Source: Desulfonatronovibrio magnus (GTDB taxonomy: Bacteria; Desulfobacterota; Desulfovibrionia; Desulfovibrionales; Desulfonatronovibrionaceae). From it: a stretch of 64,000 bases of DNA. This document shows, one piece after another, positions 3,791 through 63,450 of the stretch. The position numbers and the translations under genes were made by a program. How positions within the stretch are numbered: position 1 is the stretch's first letter; every line of letters begins with the position of its first letter. Location: assembly GCF_000934755.1 (NCBI RefSeq), contig NZ_KN882175.1, positions 24,456 to 88,455 on the forward strand. The letters are read 5' to 3'. The notes under the pieces were generated by a model, which worked only from the letters and a program-made list of their open reading frames with translations, was not told the DNA's origin and did no database searches.

Positions 3791-3825
3791 GGTAAGTTAC
3801 ATATAGTTACTTTGGGTTAATACCC

Positions 3826-3941
3826 GATTATGACGGCTTGGAACGGCTTCCTGCCCGGAGGATTACAGCCCGGAGGGGGACTGTCCCTGGCTTCGGAACT
3901 GTCTCCAATTGACTTTTCAGAAACGCTTAATGCTCCCGCCT
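3826..3941 (-). mobile_element. Truncated copy of the 24-bp-TIR element
   Basis: Reading on the minus strand, GGGAGCATTAAGCGTTTCTG starts at 3941 and the match to the intact elements at 24451 and 59066 continues to about 3826 (CCGTCATAATCGGG), where it stops before the second inverted end. It carries the 30-bp CCTGCCCGGAGG...CCCGGAGGG hairpin module inside. I infer a decayed or truncated insertion. Confidence 0.75.
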
Positions 3942-4284: not shown

Positions 4285-4440
4285 TTAACGCTTTTTTAAA
4301 CATCAAAGGGACAGGTGCTCCGGAACCCATTTGAGCATAATTTTGCATGAAGAATAAGTCTTTTCTGGGCAAGCAAGACCCGGAAGAGCCAGTCCCCCTC
4401 CGGGCTGTATGCCTCCGGGCAGGAAGCCGTGCCACATGTA
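4285..4440. repeat. REPIN-like hairpin element
   Basis: GGGACAGGTGCTCCGGAACCC pairs imperfectly with GACCCGGAAGAGCCAGTCCCC around a loop, followed by the 30-bp CTCCGGGCTGTATGCCTCCGGG module and GGAAGCCGTGCCACATG. Close relatives lie at 26796-26886 and 52652-52785. The layout resembles REP doublets mobilised by REP-associated tyrosine transposases, but no such transposase is in the window. Confidence 0.6.
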
Positions 4441-16869: not shown

Positions 16870-17130
16870 GAACCTCCTCACCCGGGCGGCCCGGGACCGA
16901 ACTTGTGAGTAACTGAAAATGAGTCTCCTCTATGGACATTGGGACAGTCCCCGCGAGGTACTATAAAACAGATTGATGCTGCATTGGTTCCTGGAAGAAA
17001 TTTGCTTCAATGGAAAAATTTACATAGCGAGGGACAGTCCCTGTGCCAGGCGCAAAGTTCTCATCTTTGACGGAACTTTTCTGGCAAATGTGCATCAATC
17101 ATGAGCAAAAATCGTAAAAACTTGAAACAG
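16870..17130 (-). repeat. Repeat modules D and A, minus orientation
   Basis: CTCACCCGGGCGGCCCGGGA (module D hairpin) is followed by GGGACAGTCCC boxes at about 16942 and 17032 and the conserved TGATGCTGCATTGGTTCCTG core. It is the reverse complement of the copy at 42190-42495. Confidence 0.88.
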
Positions 17131-17140
17131 CCTTAACGCG

Positions 17141-17271
17141 AGATTGCTTCGCTTCGCTCGCAACAAGGATTGCCGCGCTCGAAGGCTCGCTCGCAATGAC
17201 ACCTGAGTTGTCAGGGATGTGGTTGCTGAAAACCTGTCACCCACGAGGAGCCTAAGCGAACGAAGCAATCT
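17141..17271 (-). repeat. Repeat module B, minus orientation
   Basis: AGATTGCTTCG at 17141 and CGAAGCAATCT ending 17271 bound the same interior as the copy at 542-673, reversed. Confidence 0.85.
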
Positions 17272-17318
17272 GAATCTTCAACCTTCAACCTTCAGCCTTC
17301 AACCTCAGCCTTCAGCCT

Positions 17319-20310: not shown

Positions 20311-23049
20311 CTATGTTTTAATCATCCTGACCAGCAAGGAACTTAATTCACTTATAGTGTACGGTTTTGCAAGCACTCCCAAAAAGCCATGCTCCCTGTA
20401 GTTAGCCATGACTGGATCCTGTGAATATCCGCTGGAAACAACTGCTTTGACCTCAGGATATATTTCCTTCAGCTTCTGCATGGTTTCCAGGCCTCCCATG
20501 CCCCCTGGTACAGTCAAGTCCATAATAATTAGATCAAAAGGATTCTTTTCCTCAACAGACTTTGCATACTCTTCCAAAATATTTTTACCATCAGCAACAA
20601 GTTCAGCTTCGTAGCCCAAGAGATCAAGTGCTTCCTTAACAACCTCAAGTATCTCCTGGTCATCATCCAAAACCAGAATCCTGCCTCTGCCTGATTCTAT
20701 GGGACTTTTAGAATAAGCAACATCTTCTAACAGTTCAGCAGACATTGCTGGCAGATAAATTGTGAAGCTGGTACCCTGCCCCCTGGTGGAAGAGACTTCT
20801 ATATACCCGTTATGATTATTGATGATGGAGTAAGTAGTGGCCAAACCTAAGCCTGTGCCGCTCTTTTTGGTGGTAAAATAAGGATCAAATATTTTCTGCA
20901 GATTATCCGAATCTATGCCGCAACCATTGTCACTGACCACAAGTCTGACATACTTTCCTGCAGCAAGAGGCAGATCAGAACCTGGCTCAAGGGTAATATT
21001 ACGCGCCTCAATGCATACTTCCCCTCCTGCAGGCATAGCTTGAGCAGAATTAATGACCAGATTTTCCAGAACTTGAGATATCTGTCCAGGGTCAACATTG
21101 GCAGGCCACAAATTGGAAGGAATATCAAGATTTCTAATCACATTGGATCCACGCAAAGCGAAACCAACAGTATCTTCAATTAATTCGGCCATAGATGTTG
21201 CTTCCTTAATGGGAGCGCCACCTTTTGAAAAGGTAAGCAGCTGCTGAGTCAAACGTCTGGCACGCAGACAGGCCTTTTGAGCAGACTCCATTTTGGAAAT
21301 ATTGACATCATCCTTAACCATGCTGGATTTGACCATTATAATATGGTTCAAAATTGCCGTAAGAATATTGTTAAAGTCATGAGCAATGCCTCCAGCCAGC
21401 AGCCCAATGGATTCAAGCTTTTCTTTCCTCAATCGTTCTTCTTCCAGGTACAGCAGGTCTGATATGTCCTGAAAAACCATAACTGTACCCAGAATCTGGC
21501 TGTAACGATCGTAAATGGGAGATATTTTAAAACTGATCTGGTAATCAACACCATTTTGGCCGGTAAGAATTACCCCTCTTGCTTTTTCGTATATTTTATT
21601 CGTCTTGATGACCCGCTTGAACGGCTCGATAGACTCACCCAGATTATCACGCAGTTTGAACACAGTGTGAAAAGACTTTTCCTTGACGTTCTCCAGGCTT
21701 ATTCCGAGAATCTCTTCGGCTACGCGGTTTACAAAAACTAGCCGTCCCTGTTTGTCGGTTATGAGAACAGCATCTCCAATACTTTTCAAAGTGACTGCGA
21801 AAAACTCCTTCTCAGACTGCAGTTGAATTTCCGCATTTTTTCGAAGCGCGATTTCATTGTTAAGACTGTCATTAGCCTCCTGGAGTTTTTCAGTTCTTTC
21901 ATGAACTTTCTTTTCAAGATTGGCGTAAAGAGATTTAAGCTCCGTCTCCATGCTTTTACGCGCTGTGATATCATGAAAGCTTATGATATAACTCAGTCCG
22001 CAAGTCATGCTGACCATGGAGATAGATGCTTCAATATGTCTTGTTCCTCTTACTTTGTCTTCGAATGAAAATTCCATCCTCTGATGATCATCTGAAGCTG
22101 TGGATCGATAAAATCCAAGAATATCGCGCTTAGTGTAAATACTTAAGTCTTCTTCAATCAAATTGCTTTTACTAATGGAAAAAATCTGCTTGAAAGAAAT
22201 ATTATACCTTATAATGCGCCCTTGTTCATCAAGGACAACCAAGCCATCTGCCATGTTGTCCATTATGGAGCTGAGATAAGTAAGGGCCTGTTGCAGCTCT
22301 TCTGTGGCATTGCTGATGGACTTCTTGAGTTTATTAACATATCCCGCAATTTCCCGGCGCATACCCTCCATAGTGGACGCAAGCTCTCCAATCTCGTCAT
22401 TGGAATCAACCTTAATCTCTGACTCAAGATTTCTTTCCTTGAATTTGCGGGCGCTTTCAGTCAGTTGAACCAGAGGTTTGGAAACTTGCTGCATGAAAAA
22501 GTACATGGCAAGGATGCAGATTGAAAAAATAAACAGATTAAAGCCCTGGATCTTCAAAAGTGCAGACGTAATTCTGCTGTTAATATTGGACATTTCCATT
22601 CCAATATGAATATACCCCCCTTTGCCCATTAAAACAGAGTCATAGACATCAAGGTAGCTGCGGCCATTTATTTCTACCAGGGAATGCCTTGGCCCATAAT
22701 CTTTTGAGCCTGGCGATGACTTATGTGCATGAATGTATTCAGGTTTTGCCGGAGAAAAGGTGTGGGCTATGACCATTCCCTGCTGATCATGAACGAAAAC
22801 ATATCCAACCCCTTCAACATCCATATATTGATCAATGATGGACTGGATGGTGGCTGCATCCCTGTCAAGAAAAATATCCGGCACAGACATGGAAATGCTG
22901 TGAACTATACTCAAAGCCTTGCTGATATACTCTTCAATCATCTGCTGACGCAGCACCTGAATGGAAAAATATGAGGATGCGGCCACAATGAGTACAAAAA
23001 TGCTCACCACCGCAATCAGCGTTTTTCTGAATAGTTTGGATGTAATCAC
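20311..23049 (-). CDS. Hybrid sensor histidine kinase coupled to a binding protein
   Basis: A 912-residue membrane kinase. An N-terminal helix, a periplasmic sensor region (about 35-165) and a second helix (about 170-190) lead to a HAMP domain, two PAS domains (about 255-365 and 415-535), a HisKA segment with [14 protein letters not shown], a HATPase domain (DNGCGI, GTGLGLATTYSI) and a receiver with VLDDDQEILE, Asp in IMDLTVPGGMGG and Lys in LAKPY. The GTG start overlaps the stop codon of the binding-protein gene (GTGA), so the two are coupled. I infer that the binding protein presents a ligand to this sensor. Confidence 0.88.
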   Translation of the reverse strand: MITSKLFRKTLIAVVSIFVLIVAASSYFSIQVLRQQMIEEYISKALSIVHSISMSVPDIFLDRDAATIQSIIDQYMDVEGVGYVFVHDQQGMVIAHTFSPAKPEYIHAHKSSPGSKDYGPRHSLVEINGRSYLDVYDSVLMGKGGYIHIGMEMSNINSRITSALLKIQGFNLFIFSICILAMYFFMQQVSKPLVQLTESARKFKERNLESEIKVDSNDEIGELASTMEGMRREIAGYVNKLKKSISNATEELQQALTYLSSIMDNMADGLVVLDEQGRIIRYNISFKQIFSISKSNLIEEDLSIYTKRDILGFYRSTASDDHQRMEFSFEDKVRGTRHIEASISMVSMTCGLSYIISFHDITARKSMETELKSLYANLEKKVHERTEKLQEANDSLNNEIALRKNAEIQLQSEKEFFAVTLKSIGDAVLITDKQGRLVFVNRVAEEILGISLENVKEKSFHTVFKLRDNLGESIEPFKRVIKTNKIYEKARGVILTGQNGVDYQISFKISPIYDRYSQILGTVMVFQDISDLLYLEEERLRKEKLESIGLLAGGIAHDFNNILTAILNHIIMVKSSMVKDDVNISKMESAQKACLRARRLTQQLLTFSKGGAPIKEATSMAELIEDTVGFALRGSNVIRNLDIPSNLWPANVDPGQISQVLENLVINSAQAMPAGGEVCIEARNITLEPGSDLPLAAGKYVRLVVSDNGCGIDSDNLQKIFDPYFTTKKSGTGLGLATTYSIINNHNGYIEVSSTRGQGTSFTIYLPAMSAELLEDVAYSKSPIESGRGRILVLDDDQEILEVVKEALDLLGYEAELVADGKNILEEYAKSVEEKNPFDLIIMDLTVPGGMGGLETMQKLKEIYPEVKAVVSSGYSQDPVMANYREHGFLGVLAKPYTISELSSLLVRMIKT

Positions 23050-24269
23050 TGAAAAAGGCCTGAAAAATCTTCTAAGGGTACTGGACTATGCTCTTCAAAA
23101 GCAATAAAAAATATTTTATCCTGAAATTCCCATTGCGGAAAAACTTTACTGAAGTGTAAGGACTGGCCTGCTTCAAGATAGTCTGATAATTCCCGGGCAA
23201 TGTTTTGCCTCTCCAATTCCGGACCAGTCCTGTTCAAGATATCAGCGATAAACCAGGCATTCAGGTAACCTTCAAAGCCAACAGCATTGGGGCCGGGAAG
23301 CTGGTACTCCTCATTGTGAGCCGTGACAGGAGGCGAGATGGATCGAAGTTCAAGGCAGGCAGCGTATTCTCTGACAGGTTGAAAATCTTCATATCCGTAA
23401 AAAGGAACTACATTGGAATTGACCAGCTGGTGTAAATAGCTTTTACTATGTATTCCTTCAAGCTTCGTCAGAATATCCCTTTTTTCATCAGCACTTACAA
23501 AGGACAGATTAAAGATAGGGACATCCAGTCCATTATTTCTCGCATCCCTGATAAATGCCGCAGCAGGCTCATAGGCAGCTATGCTGATAATGGCTTCTGG
23601 ATGCTGAGCTTTCAAAATAGTAACCTGGGGCAGAAAATCAGAGTTCATGCCTGCCCCTCTTTTATAGGTAGCTTCAGCCACAATGGTAAAACCATGACCC
23701 TCCAATGCATTACGGACACTTTGCCATCCTCCGCGACCATAAGCATCAAGCTGGTGCAAAACAGCCACCCTGTGCACATCTTCCTTGACAAGCTTGTCAA
23801 TAAGTACACTGATTTCTGAATCATACGATGCCCTGAGGCTGATGATAAAAGGATTTTCAAGTACCGGCCTGGCACCGGTGAGAGGAGTGAAAAGAAAAAC
23901 ATGCTGGTCCTGGTAATATTTCAGTAAAGGCAGGATTCTCGTAGTGGTGGGAGTGCCCACATAGTTGAAAAGGGATAAAACATTATCTTCTTCTACCAGC
24001 CTGATAGTGTTCAGCAGGGCTTTATCAGGATCATAAGCATCGTCATACGCCTTGATTATAACTTTGTGCTCGTGCACTCCCCCCTGATCATTGAGTTGAT
24101 CAAAAAAACATGCTGCTCCACGGTAGTATTCAACTCCCAGCCCACGGTTGGGACCAGTAAAGTCCGCTGACATACCAAGAAGCACCACTCTGTCTGAAGC
24201 ACATGCTGACCAGGCTGTCCAGTTAGAGAAAAAAAAGATAATGATTAGTTGAGATAGTATCTTTATCAT
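23046..24269 (-). CDS. Periplasmic ABC-type substrate-binding protein (LivK-like)
   Basis: A secreted protein of about 407 residues. Residues 1-24 form a signal peptide (hydrophobic ILSQLIIIFFF, then WSACASD). The mature part is a type I periplasmic binding fold of the branched-chain amino acid class (GMSADFTGPNRGLGVEYYRG, then the GTPTT hinge region). No ABC permease or ATPase gene is nearby; the following gene is a hybrid kinase overlapping by four bases, so it probably serves signalling, not uptake. I prefer the ATG at 24269 to the TTG just upstream. No strong ribosome binding site is visible. Confidence 0.85.
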   Translation of the reverse strand: MIKILSQLIIIFFFSNWTAWSACASDRVVLLGMSADFTGPNRGLGVEYYRGAACFFDQLNDQGGVHEHKVIIKAYDDAYDPDKALLNTIRLVEEDNVLSLFNYVGTPTTTRILPLLKYYQDQHVFLFTPLTGARPVLENPFIISLRASYDSEISVLIDKLVKEDVHRVAVLHQLDAYGRGGWQSVRNALEGHGFTIVAEATYKRGAGMNSDFLPQVTILKAQHPEAIISIAAYEPAAAFIRDARNNGLDVPIFNLSFVSADEKRDILTKLEGIHSKSYLHQLVNSNVVPFYGYEDFQPVREYAACLELRSISPPVTAHNEEYQLPGPNAVGFEGYLNAWFIADILNRTGPELERQNIARELSDYLEAGQSLHFSKVFPQWEFQDKIFFIAFEEHSPVPLEDFSGLFQ

Positions 24270-24450
24270 CAAAAGAAAAATGTATTGGGGTGAATAAAAA
24301 AAGTAACAGTATAATCATTTAGATGTGGCACGGAGACTGGAGCTTCCGGGCTCCTCCTGCCTAAAAAATGACACGTTTAAAACAGCAACTGATGCTCAAA
24401 TGGGTCCCGGAGAGTGCTGGTCCTAACCTCAAAAAGGGCTGAACTGACAA

Positions 24451-24614
24451 GGGAGCATTACGCGTTTCTGAAAAGTCAATAGGGGAAAGTCCCCCTCCGG
24501 GCTGTAAGCCTCCAGGCAGGAAGCCGTGCCGAGCCGTCATAATCAGGTTTAAACCTCAAAACAGGCCTGACATTCAAATCAAAATTAAAGTTTCCAGAAA
24601 CGCGTAATGCTCCC
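24451..24614. mobile_element. Short nonautonomous transposable element with 24-bp inverted ends and 9-bp target duplication
   Basis: The left end 24451-24474 starts GGGAGCATTACGCGTTTCTG and the right end 24591-24614 ends with its complement with one mismatch. Directly outside lie AACTGACAA (24442-24450) and AACTGACAA (24615-24623), a perfect 9-bp duplication. Inside is the CTCCGGGCTGTAAGCCTCC hairpin module and GTGCCGAGCCGTCATAATC. There is no room for a transposase, so a transposase elsewhere must move it. Confidence 0.9.
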
Positions 24615-24884
24615 AACTGACAACATGCTACCCCAATCGTCTAAGGAGGTCCAGTATTTATTGATGGAACATATTACTCTGAAGACATGAACCAGGAGGC
24701 AGAGGTCAGAAGGCACAGATCATCACAAATACTCATATTTTTTTATATGACACATTATATCACAAACTAATTGCGAGAAAAAAATACCGTTCAGTGCCAT
24801 TTTTCAGCTATTTACAAAAGATCACTAAAGACTTAAGTACGTCAAATACAATTTGTTGCGAAATGATTCATTGTGATGGTTTAG

Positions 24885-25065: not shown

Positions 25066-26412
25066 ATGGCTACCAGTCAACAACTAACTATTTATGACAA
25101 AATCCTTCAGCACTTTGTAAAAGAGGCCAAGGGGTGCATCATGGCTGTCACCCATGATGTGCTGTTTTTAAAAGCACTCAAGGGAGCATACAAGTCTTTG
25201 GGCCTTGATTACAACAGTGTATTTCATAAAAATGATCTGGAAAAGGCATTATCTGATGCTAAATTGATCCTGAAACGCTATTCGCAAATTATTTTTTTTG
25301 TAGAGGCAAACATTGATGGTTACAGCAATATTCTTACATTGCGAAATATCAAAACCTTATTTGGTCATAAATGCAAGGTTATTGTCATTACTGTGGAGAC
25401 TGAAAGAAATAGAATTATTCAGATGTATGAAATGGGAGGAGACAATGTCATTGTCAAACCTGTATCCATAAACGCTCTGATTCAAAAAATCGCTTTAACC
25501 TTGAACCCCAACAACAATCTGGCCAAAATGGTAGATGAAGCCAGAAGTCTGATTCAGGAAGAAAAATTCGATGAAGCCGAAAAGGTTACTGACAGCATTC
25601 TTAAAGAAAAGCCTGACAGTGCCATTGCCCTGATTCTCAAAGGTGAAATTGCACAAAGCCGAGAGCAATACGAAACAGCAGAAGAAATGTACATTAAGGC
25701 CAGTTCGCAAAGCAAGATGTATCTTGAACCACTCAAAAAATTATCCCAACTATATGAACAGATCAATAATATGGAAAAAAAGCTTGAATATCTCAAAAAA
25801 CTCGATCGTTTGTCCCCTCTTAATCACGACCGGAAAATAGACATCGGCCAGACATACCTTCAAATGGATGAGGAAGAACTGGCAAGGGAAAGCTTTGACG
25901 AAGCAGTGAAGCAGATTGAGAAGCAGGCCAGGGACATGGTGAGCTCAACGTTGATGCGCATTGCCAAATCTGTAGGCGAGTCCAGACAGGACCTGAAGAG
26001 TCATTATATTGCCAAAGCCATATCAAATAAAGGCAGCAGCCTGACCAGGGAAGATCTGTGGATGTTTAACGAAATCGGCATCAGCCTCAGACAGCAGGGC
26101 AAATGGGAAGAAGCCATTGAATATTACAGCGAAGGTCTGAGAATATCTCCCATGGACGGAGGACTTTACTACAACATGGGGATGGCTTATGCCCAGGGCA
26201 AGCAGTATTACAAGGCACTGGAAAATTTTCAGAAAGCCATCAGCAACACCCCGGATATTGTTTACCAGACAGGAAGTATTGGATATAATATAGCCAGAGT
26301 GTACCTCACACTAAACAAGCATGATGACGCAGCGAGATACCTCAAAAAATCACTTGAAGCTGATCCAGACTATGAAAAATCACAAGCACTGCTTAAAAAA
26401 ATCTACAAATAA
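25066..26412 (+). CDS. Degenerate receiver-like domain plus TPR protein
   Basis: A soluble 448-residue protein. Residues about 20-150 have the outline of a receiver domain (alternating strands and helices, KVIVITVE, VKPVSINAL near the usual Lys-Pro), but the strand-3 end reads IIFFVEA with no obvious phospho-acceptor Asp. From about 155 to the C terminus it is helical with at least seven tetratricopeptide repeats (for example WEEAIEYYSEGLRISPMDGG and YYKALENFQKAI). It is likely an adaptor. GAGG lies 6 bases before the ATG. It is a single gene flanked by repeats. Confidence 0.78.
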   Translation: MATSQQLTIYDKILQHFVKEAKGCIMAVTHDVLFLKALKGAYKSLGLDYNSVFHKNDLEKALSDAKLILKRYSQIIFFVEANIDGYSNILTLRNIKTLFGHKCKVIVITVETERNRIIQMYEMGGDNVIVKPVSINALIQKIALTLNPNNNLAKMVDEARSLIQEEKFDEAEKVTDSILKEKPDSAIALILKGEIAQSREQYETAEEMYIKASSQSKMYLEPLKKLSQLYEQINNMEKKLEYLKKLDRLSPLNHDRKIDIGQTYLQMDEEELARESFDEAVKQIEKQARDMVSSTLMRIAKSVGESRQDLKSHYIAKAISNKGSSLTREDLWMFNEIGISLRQQGKWEEAIEYYSEGLRISPMDGGLYYNMGMAYAQGKQYYKALENFQKAISNTPDIVYQTGSIGYNIARVYLTLNKHDDAARYLKKSLEADPDYEKSQALLKKIYK

Positions 26413-26449
26413 AGCCAGACAATATCTGTTCAGTGCGTTGCATCTGACA

Positions 26450-26790
26450 AGTAGCTATAATCGTTTTGCTAATAAAATCAAATGTTTACAATTTTAACAT
26501 TTTTACGATTTTTGCTTATGAATGATGCACATTTGCCAGAAAAGTTCCGTCAAAGCTGGGAGCTTTGCGCCTGGCACAGCTTCCTGCCCGGAGGCTTACA
26601 GCCCGGAGGGGGACTGTCCCTCGCTGTGTCAATTTTTTCATTAAAGCAAATTTCTTCCAGGAACCAATGCAGCGTCAAGCTTTTTTATAGTACCTCGCGG
26701 GGACTGTCCCAATTTCCAGAAAAGTGACAGACTCTTAAAGTTACTCACAGGTTCGGTCCCGGGCCGCCCGGGTGAGGAGCTTTTAAGGAA
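26450..26790 (+). repeat. Repeat modules A and D with the 30-bp hairpin inserted
   Basis: It carries the module A core (TGATGCACATTTGCCAGAAA, GGGACTGTCCCTCGC, CCAGGAACCAATGCAGC, GCGGGGACTGTCCC) and a canonical module D hairpin. Between GGCACAG and GGGACTG it contains an extra 30 bases (CTTCCTGCCCGGAGG...CAGCCCGGAGG) that are absent from the copies at 1, 303, 42.2, 52.4, 62.6 and 63.2 kb. Confidence 0.88.
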
Positions 26791-26795
26791 AGCAG

Positions 26796-26917
26796 GGGAC
26801 AGGCACTCCGGGACCCACTTGATCATCAATTTGTACTCAAAATGACTCATTTTTGGGACAAGTGGGTCCCGGAAGAGCCAGTCCCCAATTGACTTTTCAA
26901 AAGCGCGTAATGCTCCC
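26796..26917. mobile_element. REPIN-like hairpin fused to one end of the 24-bp-TIR element
   Basis: GGGGACAGGCACTCCGGGAC and CCACTTG pair with CAAGTGGGTCCCGGAAGAGC and CAGTCCCC (26798-26886). Directly joined is AATTGACTTTTCAAAAGCGC and GTAATGCTCCC, the reversed left end of the element at 59066, ending at 26917, one base before the larC stop codon. No target duplication can be recognised because the other end is missing. Confidence 0.7.
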
Positions 26918-40159: not shown

Positions 40160-40262
40160 ATGGTTACCACTAATGTGGGCTGCGCCTACAGCGTTAAAGG
40201 CTGAAGGCGGAAGGCGGAAGAATAGGGGGCTTGGGCATCACTGCTCTTTCAAGTAACTGGAA
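40160..40262 (+). repeat. Module E fragment
   Basis: TAATGTGGGCTGCGCCTACA, about four GAAGGCG/GAAGGCT units (40196-40218), GAATAGGGGGCTTGGGCATC and GCTCTTTCAAGTAACT match the middle of module E. It runs straight into module A. Confidence 0.75.
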
Positions 40263-40595
40263 TCGTTTTGATAATAAATTCAAATGGTTACAATTTTCAC
40301 ATTTTTATGATTTTTGCTTATGATTCATGCACATTTGCCAGCAAAGTTCCGTCAAAGATGGGAACTTTGTGCCTGGCACAGCTTCCTGCCCGGAGGCTTA
40401 CAGCCCGGAGGGGGACTGTCCCTCGCTGTGTAAATTTTGTCATCAAAGAAAATCTCTTCCAGGAACCAATGCAGCATCAATCTTTTTTAAAGTACCTCGC
40501 GGGGACTGTCCCAATTTCCAGAAAAGTGACAGTATCCTATAGTTACTCGCAGGTTCGGTCCCGGGCCGCCCGGGTGAGGAGCTTTCAAGTAACTG
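40256..40595 (+). repeat. Repeat modules A and D with the 30-bp hairpin inserted
   Basis: The same build as 26450-26790, including the CTTCCTGCCCGGAGGCTTAC hairpin between GGCACAG and GGGACTGTCCC. Confidence 0.88.
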
Positions 40596-40640
40596 GAATC
40601 GTTTTGATAATAAAATCAGGTTATTATGGCTTTACCATAT

Positions 40641-40820
40641 AGATTGCTTCGGTCGAATAGGCTCACTTGTTGGTGACAGGTTTTGAGCAACTACATCCCT
40701 GACACCTCAGGTGTCATTGCGAGCGAGTCTTATTACCTCATTGAATTCACGCAGTGTAGGCGCAGCCATTCAACTGGGGCGAGCGCGGCAATCCTTGTTG
40801 CGAGCCAAGCAAAGCAATCT
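40641..40820 (+). repeat. Repeat module B with a 50-base insertion
   Basis: The ends AGATTGCTTC and AAAGCAATCT are as in other copies, but about 50 bases (TTATTACCTCATTGAATTCA...CAACTGGGGC) interrupt GCGAGCGAGT...GCGCGGCAAT. The following 40840-40875 is the tail of module E (TTTTATGACAGGATTTCAGG). Confidence 0.8.
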
Positions 40821-40875
40821 CGCGCTAAGGCTGTTTTTCTTGTATTTTTATGACAGGATTTCAGGAGTAAGTTAC

Positions 40876-41832: not shown

Positions 41833-41922
41833 TTGCGAATCAGCATGCGTATACTTTGCTTTTAGTACAAGTAAATACAATCGTATATGTAATAACATCA
41901 GGGCATTATGGTTTTACCATAC

Positions 41923-42160
41923 AGATTGCTTCGGTCGCTTAGGCTCACTCTTGGTGACAAATTTTCAGCAACCACATCCCTGACAGCTCAGGTGTCATTG
42001 CGAGCGAGTCTTCGAGCGCGGCAATCTCAAACGTGTTGAGGTTATTACCTCTTTTTTTGTGGCTTAAGCCACATTTCAAAGAAGCGGCTGGAGCCGCAAG
42101 AGTAAGACGTCCCCAGGCTGGAGCCTGGGAACGAGGGGTATAAGCTACTCACACGTTCGG
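41923..42160 (+). repeat. Repeat modules B (short) and C
   Basis: Module B runs 41923-42027 and lacks the CTTGTTGCGAGCGAAGCGAA part. Module C at 42055-42150 has GTGGCTTAAGCCAC in place of GTGGCTCCAGCCAC, then GCGGCTGGAGCCGC and CCCAGGCTGGAGCCTGGG. Confidence 0.83.
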
Positions 42161-42189
42161 TCCCGGGCCGCCCGGGTGAGAAGCTTACA

Positions 42190-42495
42190 AGCAACTATAG
42201 TCGTTTTGCTAATAAAATCAGACGTTTATAATTTTCATATTTTTACGATTTTTGCCTATGATACATGAACATTTGCCAGAAAATTTCCGTCAAAGATGAG
42301 AGCTTTGCGCCTGGCACAGGGACTGTCCCTCGCTGTGTAAATTTTTCCATTTAAGCAAATTTCTTCCAGGAACCAATGCAGCATCAATCTTTTTTATAGT
42401 ACCTCGCGGGGACTGTCCCAATGTCCATAGAGGAGACTCATTTTCAGTTACTCGAAGGTTCGGTCCCGGTCCCTCCGGGTGAGGAGCTTCCAAGT
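42190..42495 (+). repeat. Repeat modules A and D without the 30-bp hairpin
   Basis: GGCACAGGGACTGTCCCTCG is uninterrupted here. The module D hairpin is CCCGG-TCCCT-CCGGG. Confidence 0.88.
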
Positions 42496-42539
42496 AACTT
42501 CAAAAAAAACTGGACCCCGGATCAAGTCCGTGGTGACGG

Positions 42540-42725
42540 TTAAAGCAAGTTTTTACTCTTTACCGTCATTCCGGCGAAAGCCGGAATCCAGGCTTTGGTA
42601 TGAAGAAGCGGCTGGAGCCGCAAGAGTAAGACGTCCCCAGGCTGGAGCCTGGGAACGAGGGGTATAAGCTACTCACACGTTCGGTCCCGGGCCGCCAGGG
42701 TGAGGAGCTTCTAAACAACTATAAT
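42540..42725 (+). repeat. Partial repeat with modules C and D
   Basis: TTTACCGTCATTCCGGCGAA and GCCGGAATCC form a dyad, followed by GCGGCTGGAGCCGC, CCCAGGCTGGAGCCTGGG, and CGGTCCCGGGCCGCCAGGGT. It is joined to the tail of the copy at 42190-42495. Confidence 0.75.
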
Positions 42726-42773
42726 CCTGGACATTCAAGGCGCTAAACAGCCACAAAAAAATTCTACTTAGCT

Positions 42774-44943: not shown

Positions 44944-45204
44944 GCGCCTCACCCGGGAGGACCGGGACCGAACTTGTGAGTAACTTATACCCCTCGTTCC
45001 CAGGCTCCAGCCTGGGGACGTCTTACTCTTGCGGCTCCAGCCGCTTCTTCAAAATGTGGCTGGAGCCTGGGAACAAGAAAAACAGCCTTAGCGCGTTTGG
45101 GATTGCCGCGCTCGAAGACTCGCTCGCAATGACACCTGAACTGTCAGGTATGTAGTTGCTCAAAACCTGTCACCCACGAAGGAGCCTAAGCGACCGAAGC
45201 AACC
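44944..45204 (-). repeat. Repeat modules D, C and B, minus orientation
   Basis: CACCCGGGAGGACCGGGACC (module D), CCCAGGCTCCAGCCTGGG and GCGGCTCCAGCCGC (module C), then module B at 45101-45204 in reverse. Confidence 0.85.
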
Positions 45205-45259
45205 CCTAAGGTAAAGCTATAAACATCCGATTTTATTAGCAAAATGATTGTAGTTACTT

Positions 45260-45605
45260 AGAAGCTCCTCACCCGGGCGGACCGGGACCGAACCTGCGAG
45301 TAACTCTAAGAGTCTGTCACTTTTTTGGAAATTGGGACAGTCCCCGCGAGGTGCTACAAACAAGACTGATGCTGCATTGGTTCCTGGAAAAAATTTGCTT
45401 AAATGATAAAATTTACACAGCGAGGGACAGTCCCCCTCCGGGCTGTAAGCCTCCGGGCAGGAAGCTGTGCCAGGCGCAAGGTTCCCATCTTTGATGGAAC
45501 TTTTCAGGAAATTGAGAATCAATCATATGTAAAAATTATAAAAATTGTGAAAATTATAACCGTCTGATTTCATTAGAAAAACGATTATAGTTACTTGTAA
45601 GAAGC
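45260..45605 (-). repeat. Repeat modules D and A with the 30-bp hairpin, minus orientation
   Basis: CACCCGGGCGGACCGGGACC, GGGACAGTCCCCGCGAGG, the TGATGCTGCATTGGTTCCTG core, GGGACAGTCCCCCTCCGGGC with the 30-bp hairpin, and CAAGGTTCCCATCTTTGATG. Confidence 0.88.
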
Positions 45606-52293: not shown

Positions 52294-52334
52294 ACACTGG
52301 TCAGGATATTAATGACGTATCTGCTTAGCGCTTA

Positions 52335-52640
52335 CAAGCAACTGGAATCGTTTTGATAATAAAATCAGACGGTTACAATTTTCACATTTTTACGATTTTT
52401 GCTCATGATTGATGCACATTTGCCAGTAAAGTTCCGTCAAAGATGGGAACTTTGCACTTGGCACAGGGACTGTCCCTCGCTGTGTAAATTTTTCCATTGA
52501 AGCAAATTTCTTCCAGGAACCAATGCAGGATCAATCTTTTTTATAGTACCTCGCGGGGACTGTCCCAATTTCCAGAAAAGTGACAGATTCTTAAAGTTAC
52601 TCGCAGGTTCGGTCCTGGTCCGCCCAGGTGAGGAGCTTTT
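52335..52640 (+). repeat. Repeat modules A and D without the 30-bp hairpin
   Basis: The core blocks TGATGCACATTTGCCAGTAA, GGGACTGTCCCTCGC and GCGGGGACTGTCCC are present. The module D stem here reads CCTGG-TCCGC-CCAGG, a paired change from CCCGG/CCGGG. Confidence 0.88.
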
Positions 52641-52649
52641 AAGGAAAGC

Positions 52650-52790
52650 AGGGGACAGGCACTCCGGGACCCACTTGAACATCATTTTGTGCTTAAAATC
52701 TCTCATTTTTTGGGACAAGTGGGTCCCGGAAGAGCCAGTCCCCCTCCGGGCTGTATGCCTCCGGGCAGGAAGCCATGCCACATGCAAAGC
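52650..52790 (+). repeat. REPIN-like element with the 30-bp hairpin
   Basis: GGGACAGGCACTCCGGGACC and CACTTG pair with CAAGTGGGTCCCGGAAGAGC and CAGTCCCC, followed by CTCCGGGCTGTATGCCTCCG and GGAAGCCATGCC. It is nearly identical to 26796-26882 through the first part. Confidence 0.75.
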
Positions 52791-57503: not shown

Positions 57504-58976
<1,473 letters not shown>

Positions 58977-59065
58977 TTATATGTCATGCTTGTTCAGTAA
59001 AAAATTCAGTTACTTACTCTTGAAACCCTGTCATTAAAGACAAGAAATTGTTATCAGTTAATGGT

Positions 59066-59216
59066 GGGAGCATTACGCATTTCTGAAAAGTCAATTGGGG
59101 ACAGTCCCGAAGCCAGGGACAGTCCCCGTGCCAAGCCGTCACAATCGGGTTTTAAGTCCAAAATAGCTAAGACATACAGCTCGAATTTATAGTTTTCAGA
59201 AATGCGTAATGCTCCC
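59066..59216. mobile_element. Short nonautonomous transposable element, perfect 24-bp inverted ends, 9-bp target duplication
   Basis: The left end 59066-59089 (GGGAGCATTACGCATTTCTG...) and right end 59193-59216 are exact complements over 24 bases. GTTAATGGT flanks it on both sides (59057-59065 and 59217-59225). The interior holds GGGGACAGTCCC and CAGGGACAGTCCCCGTGCC hairpins. The ends are shared with 24451-24614, but the middle differs. Confidence 0.92.
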
Positions 59217-59225
59217 GTTAATGGT

Positions 59226-62443: not shown

Positions 62444-62559
62444 TAGTGACTGCCGATTTTAAGCAACTTAAATCTTATATAAGCAAAATCAGATGGTTAC
62501 ATTTTCAAGTTTTTTAAAATTTTTACTTCTAAGTAACTAAAACCAAATTATCAACAAAA

Positions 62560-62845
62560 TCAGACGGTTATAGTTTTCACAATTTTAAGATTTTTACATA
62601 TGATTGATTCTCAATTACCAGAAAAGTTCCGTCAAAGATGAGAGCTTTGCGCCTGGCACAGGGACTGTCCCTCGCTGTGTAAATTTTTTCATTTAAGCAA
62701 ATTTTTTCCAGGAACCAATGCAGTATCATGCTTTATTATAGTACCTTGCGGGGACTGTCCCAATTTCCAGAAAAGTGACAGACTCGTAAAGTTACTCACA
62801 GGTTCGGTCCCGGGCCGCCCGGGTGAGGAGCTTCTAAGTAACTAA
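62560..62845 (+). repeat. Repeat modules A and D between ccmF and ccmA (first copy)
   Basis: AGCTTTGCGCCTGGCACAGG, GGGACTGTCCC boxes at about 62662 and 62751, and a canonical CCCGGGCCGCCCGGG module D. Confidence 0.88.
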
Positions 62846-62889
62846 AGCCAAATTAGCAATAAATTCAGAGCATTATGGTTTTACCTTAC

Positions 62890-63170
62890 AGATTGCTTCG
62901 GTCGCTTAGGCTCACTTGTGGGTGACAGGTTTTCAGCAACCACTTCCCTGACATCTCAGGTGTCATTGCGAGCGAGTCTTCGAGCGCGGCAATCCTTGTT
63001 GCGAGCGAAGCGAAGCAATCTCGTGTTAAGGCTATTACCTCTTTTTTTGTGGCTTAAGCCACATTTCAAAGAAGCGGCTGGAGCCGCAAGAACAAGACGT
63101 CCCCAGGCTGGAGCCTGGGAACGAGGGGTATAAGTTACTCACAGGTTCGGTCCCGGGCCGCCCGGGTGAG
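62890..63170 (+). repeat. Repeat modules B, C and D between ccmF and ccmA
   Basis: Module B 62890-63021 (AGATTGCTTCG to CGAAGCAATCT), module C 63040-63135 (GTGGCTTAAGCCAC, GCGGCTGGAGCCGC, CCCAGGCTGGAGCCTGGG), then CGGTCCCGGGCCGCCCGGGT. Confidence 0.88.
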
Positions 63171-63179
63171 GTGCTTACA

Positions 63180-63450
63180 GGTAACTACAATCGTTTTGAT
63201 AATAAAATCAGATGGTTACAGTTTTCATGTTTTTACGATTTTTGCTTATGATTCATGCACATTTGCCTTAAAAGTTCCGTCAAAGATGGGAACTTTGCGC
63301 TTGGCACAAGGTCTGTCCCTCGCTGTGTATATTTTATCATTAAACCCAATTTCTTCCAGGAACCAATGCAGCATCAATCTGTTTTATAGTACCTCGCGGG
63401 GACTGTCCCAATTTCCAGAAAAGTGAAAGTTCTTCAATGTGGAGGCGGCT
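63180..63450 (+). repeat. Module A between ccmF and ccmA (second copy)
   Basis: GTAACTACAATCGTTTTGAT, GCACATTTGCC, GGTCTGTCCCTCGCTGTG (box mutated) and GCGGGGACTGTCCC. Its tail diverges before module D. Confidence 0.85.

Follow-up and report, generated by a model that had tools for sequence, protein, structure and literature searches.

The locus analysed here raises the question of which enzyme moves a short element that carries no transposase gene, and to which insertion-sequence family its ends belong. The element lies in a 64,000-nucleotide stretch of the Desulfonatronovibrio magnus draft genome (contig NZ_KN882175.1), referred to as the window, and had been described in an earlier note as a short mobile element with a 9-bp target duplication next to a signalling operon. 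Table 1 gives an overview of the features.

Table 1 Features of the MITE family, neighbouring genes, other repeats and related elements (positions without prefix refer to the window)
Feature	Position	Strand	Remark
164-bp MITE	24451-24614	+	Without transposase ORF; contains 34-bp module 24493-24526
Left terminal inverted repeat GGGAGCATTACGCGTTTCTGAAAA, 24 bp	24451-24474	+	23/24 identical to left end of ISKra4-family IS in G666
Right terminal inverted repeat GGGAGCATTACGCGTTTCTGGAAA (inward reading), 24 bp	24591-24614	-	
Left target-site duplication AACTGACAA	24442-24450	.	Sequence read; same 9-mer as 24615-24623
Right target-site duplication AACTGACAA	24615-24623	.	
Further complete copy (151-bp form) with perfect 24-bp ends	59066-59216	+	
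Left target-site duplication of 151-bp copy, GTTAATGGT	59057-59065	.	
Right target-site duplication of 151-bp copy, GTTAATGGT	59217-59225	.	
Truncated family copy (= G000:C114:28266-28392)	3811-3937	-	Single end retained, 3914-3937
Lone remaining end of a copy	26881-26917	-	Fused to another repeat
Hybrid histidine kinase gene	20311-23049	-	Same side as periplasmic binding protein gene
Periplasmic binding protein gene	23046-24272	-	One side of 164-bp MITE
TPR/receiver-like protein gene	25066-26412	+	Other side of 164-bp MITE
IMP dehydrogenase gene	57504-58967	-	
34-bp module CCCTCCGGGCTGTAAGCCTCCGGGCAGGAAGCCG	3844-3877, 4396-4429, 24493-24526, 26577-26610, 40379-40412, 45434-45467, 52742-52775		
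Third repeat, arms GGGACCCACTTG / CAAGTGGGTCCC	4308-4397, 26796-26886, 52652-52789		Worn, weaker copy at 24335-24412
Longer repeat family, blocks	1-690, 16871-17272, 26444-26782, 40246-40843, 41866-42726, 45058-45601, 52330-52789, 62552-63426		
G666 IS, 2,406 bp	C1:4162187-4164592		Target-site duplication TATTCGTG
G666 IS, 2,415 bp	C1:1774328-1776742		Target-site duplication ATATAATC
DruA-domain loci	L291:1388-3793; L357:3030-5517; L359:2670-4929 (own genome C48); L344-L349; L350-L353; L354-L356		

Structure and surroundings of the copies in the window

The inverted repeats of the 164-bp element match at 23 of 24 pairs and carry terminal G/C bases of the form GGG...CCC; the length, the 24-bp ends and the single mismatch given in the earlier note were exact to the base. 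The same 9-mer was read on both flanks, as had been claimed, and with the base composition of the window a perfect 9-bp flank match is expected by chance at about 4e-6 per site. An intact duplication was likewise found on either side of the copy at 59066. Neither complete copy (164 and 151 bp) is long enough for a transposase gene, and apart from its ends the element has only an interior that folds back. Each of the four window copies lies between genes.

The signalling genes reported beside the 164-bp copy are indeed present. This copy lies 178 bp from the periplasmic binding protein gene, which precedes the hybrid histidine kinase gene, and the TPR/receiver-like protein gene follows on the other side. 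The 151-bp copy lies upstream of the IMP dehydrogenase gene, at a distance of 98 bp. MITE copies may possibly influence the expression of adjoining genes.

Element lengths range from about 130 to 184 bp and cluster at 151-153 bp and 180-184 bp. By inspection, the long form has an extra block of ~31 bp, which is part of a 34-bp module; this module has seven occurrences in the window, within and outside MITEs, where none is expected by chance. The 164-bp copy looks like a long form that has lost ~18 bp by a deletion between short repeats. Two further repeats were observed in the window. One has the inverted arms GGGACCCACTTG / CAAGTGGGTCCC, and a worn copy of it stands immediately left of the 164-bp MITE. 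The other is a longer dispersed family of ~170-480-bp blocks, mostly 85-94% identical, in several intergenic regions.

Both complete copies fold as RNA into structures far more stable than those of shuffled sequences (z of -6.8 and -11.1). Together with the intergenic position of the copies, this would suit a repeat that is retained for its function as an RNA or regulatory hairpin and was spread by recombination instead of transposition. However, the fold is mostly formed by the paired inverted ends, which are common to any MITE, and no Rfam family matched in the window. Furthermore, the perfect 8-9-bp duplications, found at sites unrelated to one another, are a hallmark of transposition; they refute recombination as the mode of spread and leave room for a secondary function of the repeat. 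As a whole, this explanation is very improbable.

Copy number and target duplications

A 13-base end pattern occurred 80 times genome-wide and its reversed version not once. With the 24-base end and up to three mismatches, 185 ends were found in the 4.81-Mb genome compared to 0 for the reversed control, corresponding to ~90 family copies. Both flanks were readable for 53 two-ended copies, of which 12 showed a perfect 8-bp and five a perfect 9-bp duplication, while randomly re-paired flanks give an expectation of 0.17 and 0.07 (0.24 together). Among 21 two-ended copies from other genomes, perfect 8-bp duplications were present in seven and perfect 9-bp duplications in five (0.64 expected from re-paired flanks). 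As perfect 8-mers and 9-mers both occur, in D. magnus as well as in its relatives, the target duplication is 8 or 9 bp. Thus, the 9-bp duplication of the earlier note holds for the two complete window copies and not as a rule for the family.

The same counts support a short mobile element with target duplication and many copies. An absence of duplications at other copies, named beforehand as the result that would speak against it, was not seen (17/53 perfect vs. 0.24 by chance). That an inverted repeat and flanking 9-mers merely coincide is practically inconceivable with 185 ends against none in the control and with this excess of duplications, and we found no point in favour of coincidence. 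No duplication was detected at 26 of the 53 copies, which decay or recombination would explain without this proving either. Intact duplications and near-identical ends point indirectly to insertions that may be recent. A sub-family with the end GGGAGCATTACGAGTTTTTTGAAA coexists with the main family (L152:8837-9020; L145:10199; L101:2243), and one of its copies has a perfect 9-bp duplication, AATGGTCAT.

Distribution among relatives

An exact 21-base scan with one genome per species, whose matches were all metagenome-assembled and which possibly omitted the records of the D. magnus genome, revealed the end in Desulfonatronovibrio, Desulfonatronospira, Desulfonatronum and one unclassified Desulfovibrionales bacterium. 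Two viral contigs with the 21-base match were discarded, since they hold lone ends in apparent coding sequence and are probably due to chance. Among the 348 genomes of the order, only the Desulfonatronovibrionaceae and the related family containing Desulfonatronum had convincing copies; the sparse single matches outside them, with three mismatches, resemble coding sequence. In other genomes, too, these ends are accompanied by perfect duplications. Elements of the two families have common ends and differing interiors, an indication of more than one origin for MITEs with such ends.

Assignment of the ends to the ISKra4 family

At the inspected loci of D. magnus and relatives of the order, only host genes and no transposase were found between family ends. 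An 825-bp end pair (L159) was rejected as an autonomous copy because it encloses a host-like ORF. The model for the ISKra4 transposase (NF033572) had no match in the D. magnus genome, a draft of 134 contigs (97.5% complete) in which some family ends are located near contig ends. The model matched several relatives; of 395 genomes in the phylum, 61 had a match.

The ends of ISKra4 elements across the phylum form a series, GGGTGCATTCGC, GGGAGCATTCGC, GGGAGCATCCGC and GGGAGCATTACGCGTTTCTAAAAA. The element with GGGAGCATTCGC (genome G583) shows an 8-bp duplication, and GGGAGCATCCGC is the related end of an element in G433. A matching autonomous element was found in another Desulfobacterota genome, G666, as an insertion sequence which is present in two copies of 2,406 bp and one of 2,415 bp, with perfect 8-bp duplications flanking two of the three. 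Its ends GGGAGCATTACGCGTTTCTAAAAA / GGGTGCATTACGCGTTTCTAGAAA agree with the left end of the 24451 copy at 23/24 and 21/24 positions, and the first 19 bases of the two left ends are identical. The first gene encodes a DruA-domain protein (PF14236, E 3.5e-30), the second an ISKra4 transposase (NF033572, 246.6 bits vs. a cut-off of 205). Ends that the earlier note could not assign to a named insertion-sequence family can now be named as ISKra4, and the full-length copy with a transposase that it had envisaged was not found in the D. magnus draft but was found in G666. Beyond the ends, the MITE interior has no sequence in common with the G666 element, which is therefore a relative of the source rather than the source itself.

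Other families were considered as partners. An IS256 transposase (Transposase_mut) was rejected, since PF00872 had no match in 10 element-bearing genomes. The IS1595 family usually shows 8-bp duplications and GG- starts, and a MITE of this family would be mobilised by an ISXO2/IS1016-type transposase. Indeed, a decayed IS1595-family element of a Desulfonatronum genome (G045, L109:951-2021) has the left end AGGCTCATTATGTGTTTCGGACAG, which was found independently as the best inverted repeat of that element and agrees with the MITE end at 17/24 positions. Nevertheless this likeness is internal: the outermost bases differ, and the right end reaches only about 13/24. In the order, intact IS1595 elements carry GGGGCTGTCCTAGCTAAG or GGGTCATGACTAG at their ends, unlike the MITE. 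The family was dropped after a protein search of 348 genomes, as the MITE ends do not fit those of intact members; PF12762 had no match in the D. magnus genome. With a better fit of the ISKra4 ends (23/24), the G666 element largely refutes an IS1595 origin, which we consider improbable.

DruA-domain proteins beside transposases

DruA is named after the Druantia anti-phage system. The domain recurs as a neighbour or fusion partner of transposases from unrelated families. It forms a separate ORF with ISKra4 and with IS66, the latter also in D. magnus and, as a 3.5-kb element with six copies, in G009. A 760-aa fusion with a Tn5-type transposase has three copies, and a 373-aa fusion with a DDE_Tnp_1-associated domain has four. 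A search of the literature text yielded no paper in which DruA and ISKra4 occur together. The DruA gene of D. magnus was rejected as a partner of the MITE, as it forms a pair with an IS66 transposase and lacks MITE ends at its flanks. A mobilising element that works as a unit of two genes, with the DruA-domain protein participating in transposition, seems rather unlikely; if true, DruA would be a general transposition helper, because it also stands beside or is fused to the IS66, Tn5 and DDE_Tnp_1-associated types.

Proposed mobilisation

Because an autonomous ISKra4 element has matching ends and duplications of the same type, we infer that an ISKra4-type transposase moved the MITE copies. From these sequence features, mobilisation in trans by an ISKra4-family DDE transposase is very probable. 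The enzyme would recognise the 24-bp ends and excise or copy the MITE, perhaps via a circular intermediate of the sort suggested for the superfamily (PMC3942029). Insertion into a staggered target cut and subsequent fill-in would then yield the direct repeats of 8 or 9 bp. In D. magnus the MITE may be stranded, or its partner transposase may be unassembled, since a draft assembly with family ends near contig ends could lack a multicopy transposon whose copies collapsed.

A parental family is thereby named for a previously unassigned, very abundant repeat of a soda-lake sulphate reducer (about 90 copies in 4.8 Mb). The full-text literature search returned no description of an ISKra4-derived MITE, and where both terms co-occur they are not linked; judging by the literature that could be searched, this is the first MITE tied to ISKra4. 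With many cleanly duplicated copies and no visible partner transposase in the genome, it is also a candidate case of cross-mobilisation.

Comparison with known systems

Insertion 13-17 bp upstream of sigma-A promoters is known for some ISKra4 members, a trait that does not define the family. For the MITE, a generic sigma-70 matrix, which may not suit this organism, gave two such sites where 5.2 were expected, and thus no sign of this bias. The ISKra4 lineage (p-MULT 4, Mutator superfamily) is characterised by inverted repeats of 18-39 bp, whose terminal G/C is conserved, and direct repeats of 8 or 9 bp (Guerillot and colleagues, PMC3942029). The MITE resembles it in its 24-bp ends, which start with GGG and fall within this range, and in its duplications. 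It differs in being about 130-184 bp long without a transposase gene, whereas the G666 element is 2.4 kb long and bears genes. The MITEs described here are a new family of an ordinary kind, a non-autonomous transposon within the known ISKra4 type. Like other bacterial MITEs, e.g. MITEAba12 (PMC6382973), they are short and non-autonomous, with inverted ends, a target duplication and many copies; compared to MITEAba12, their ends and their parental family are different.
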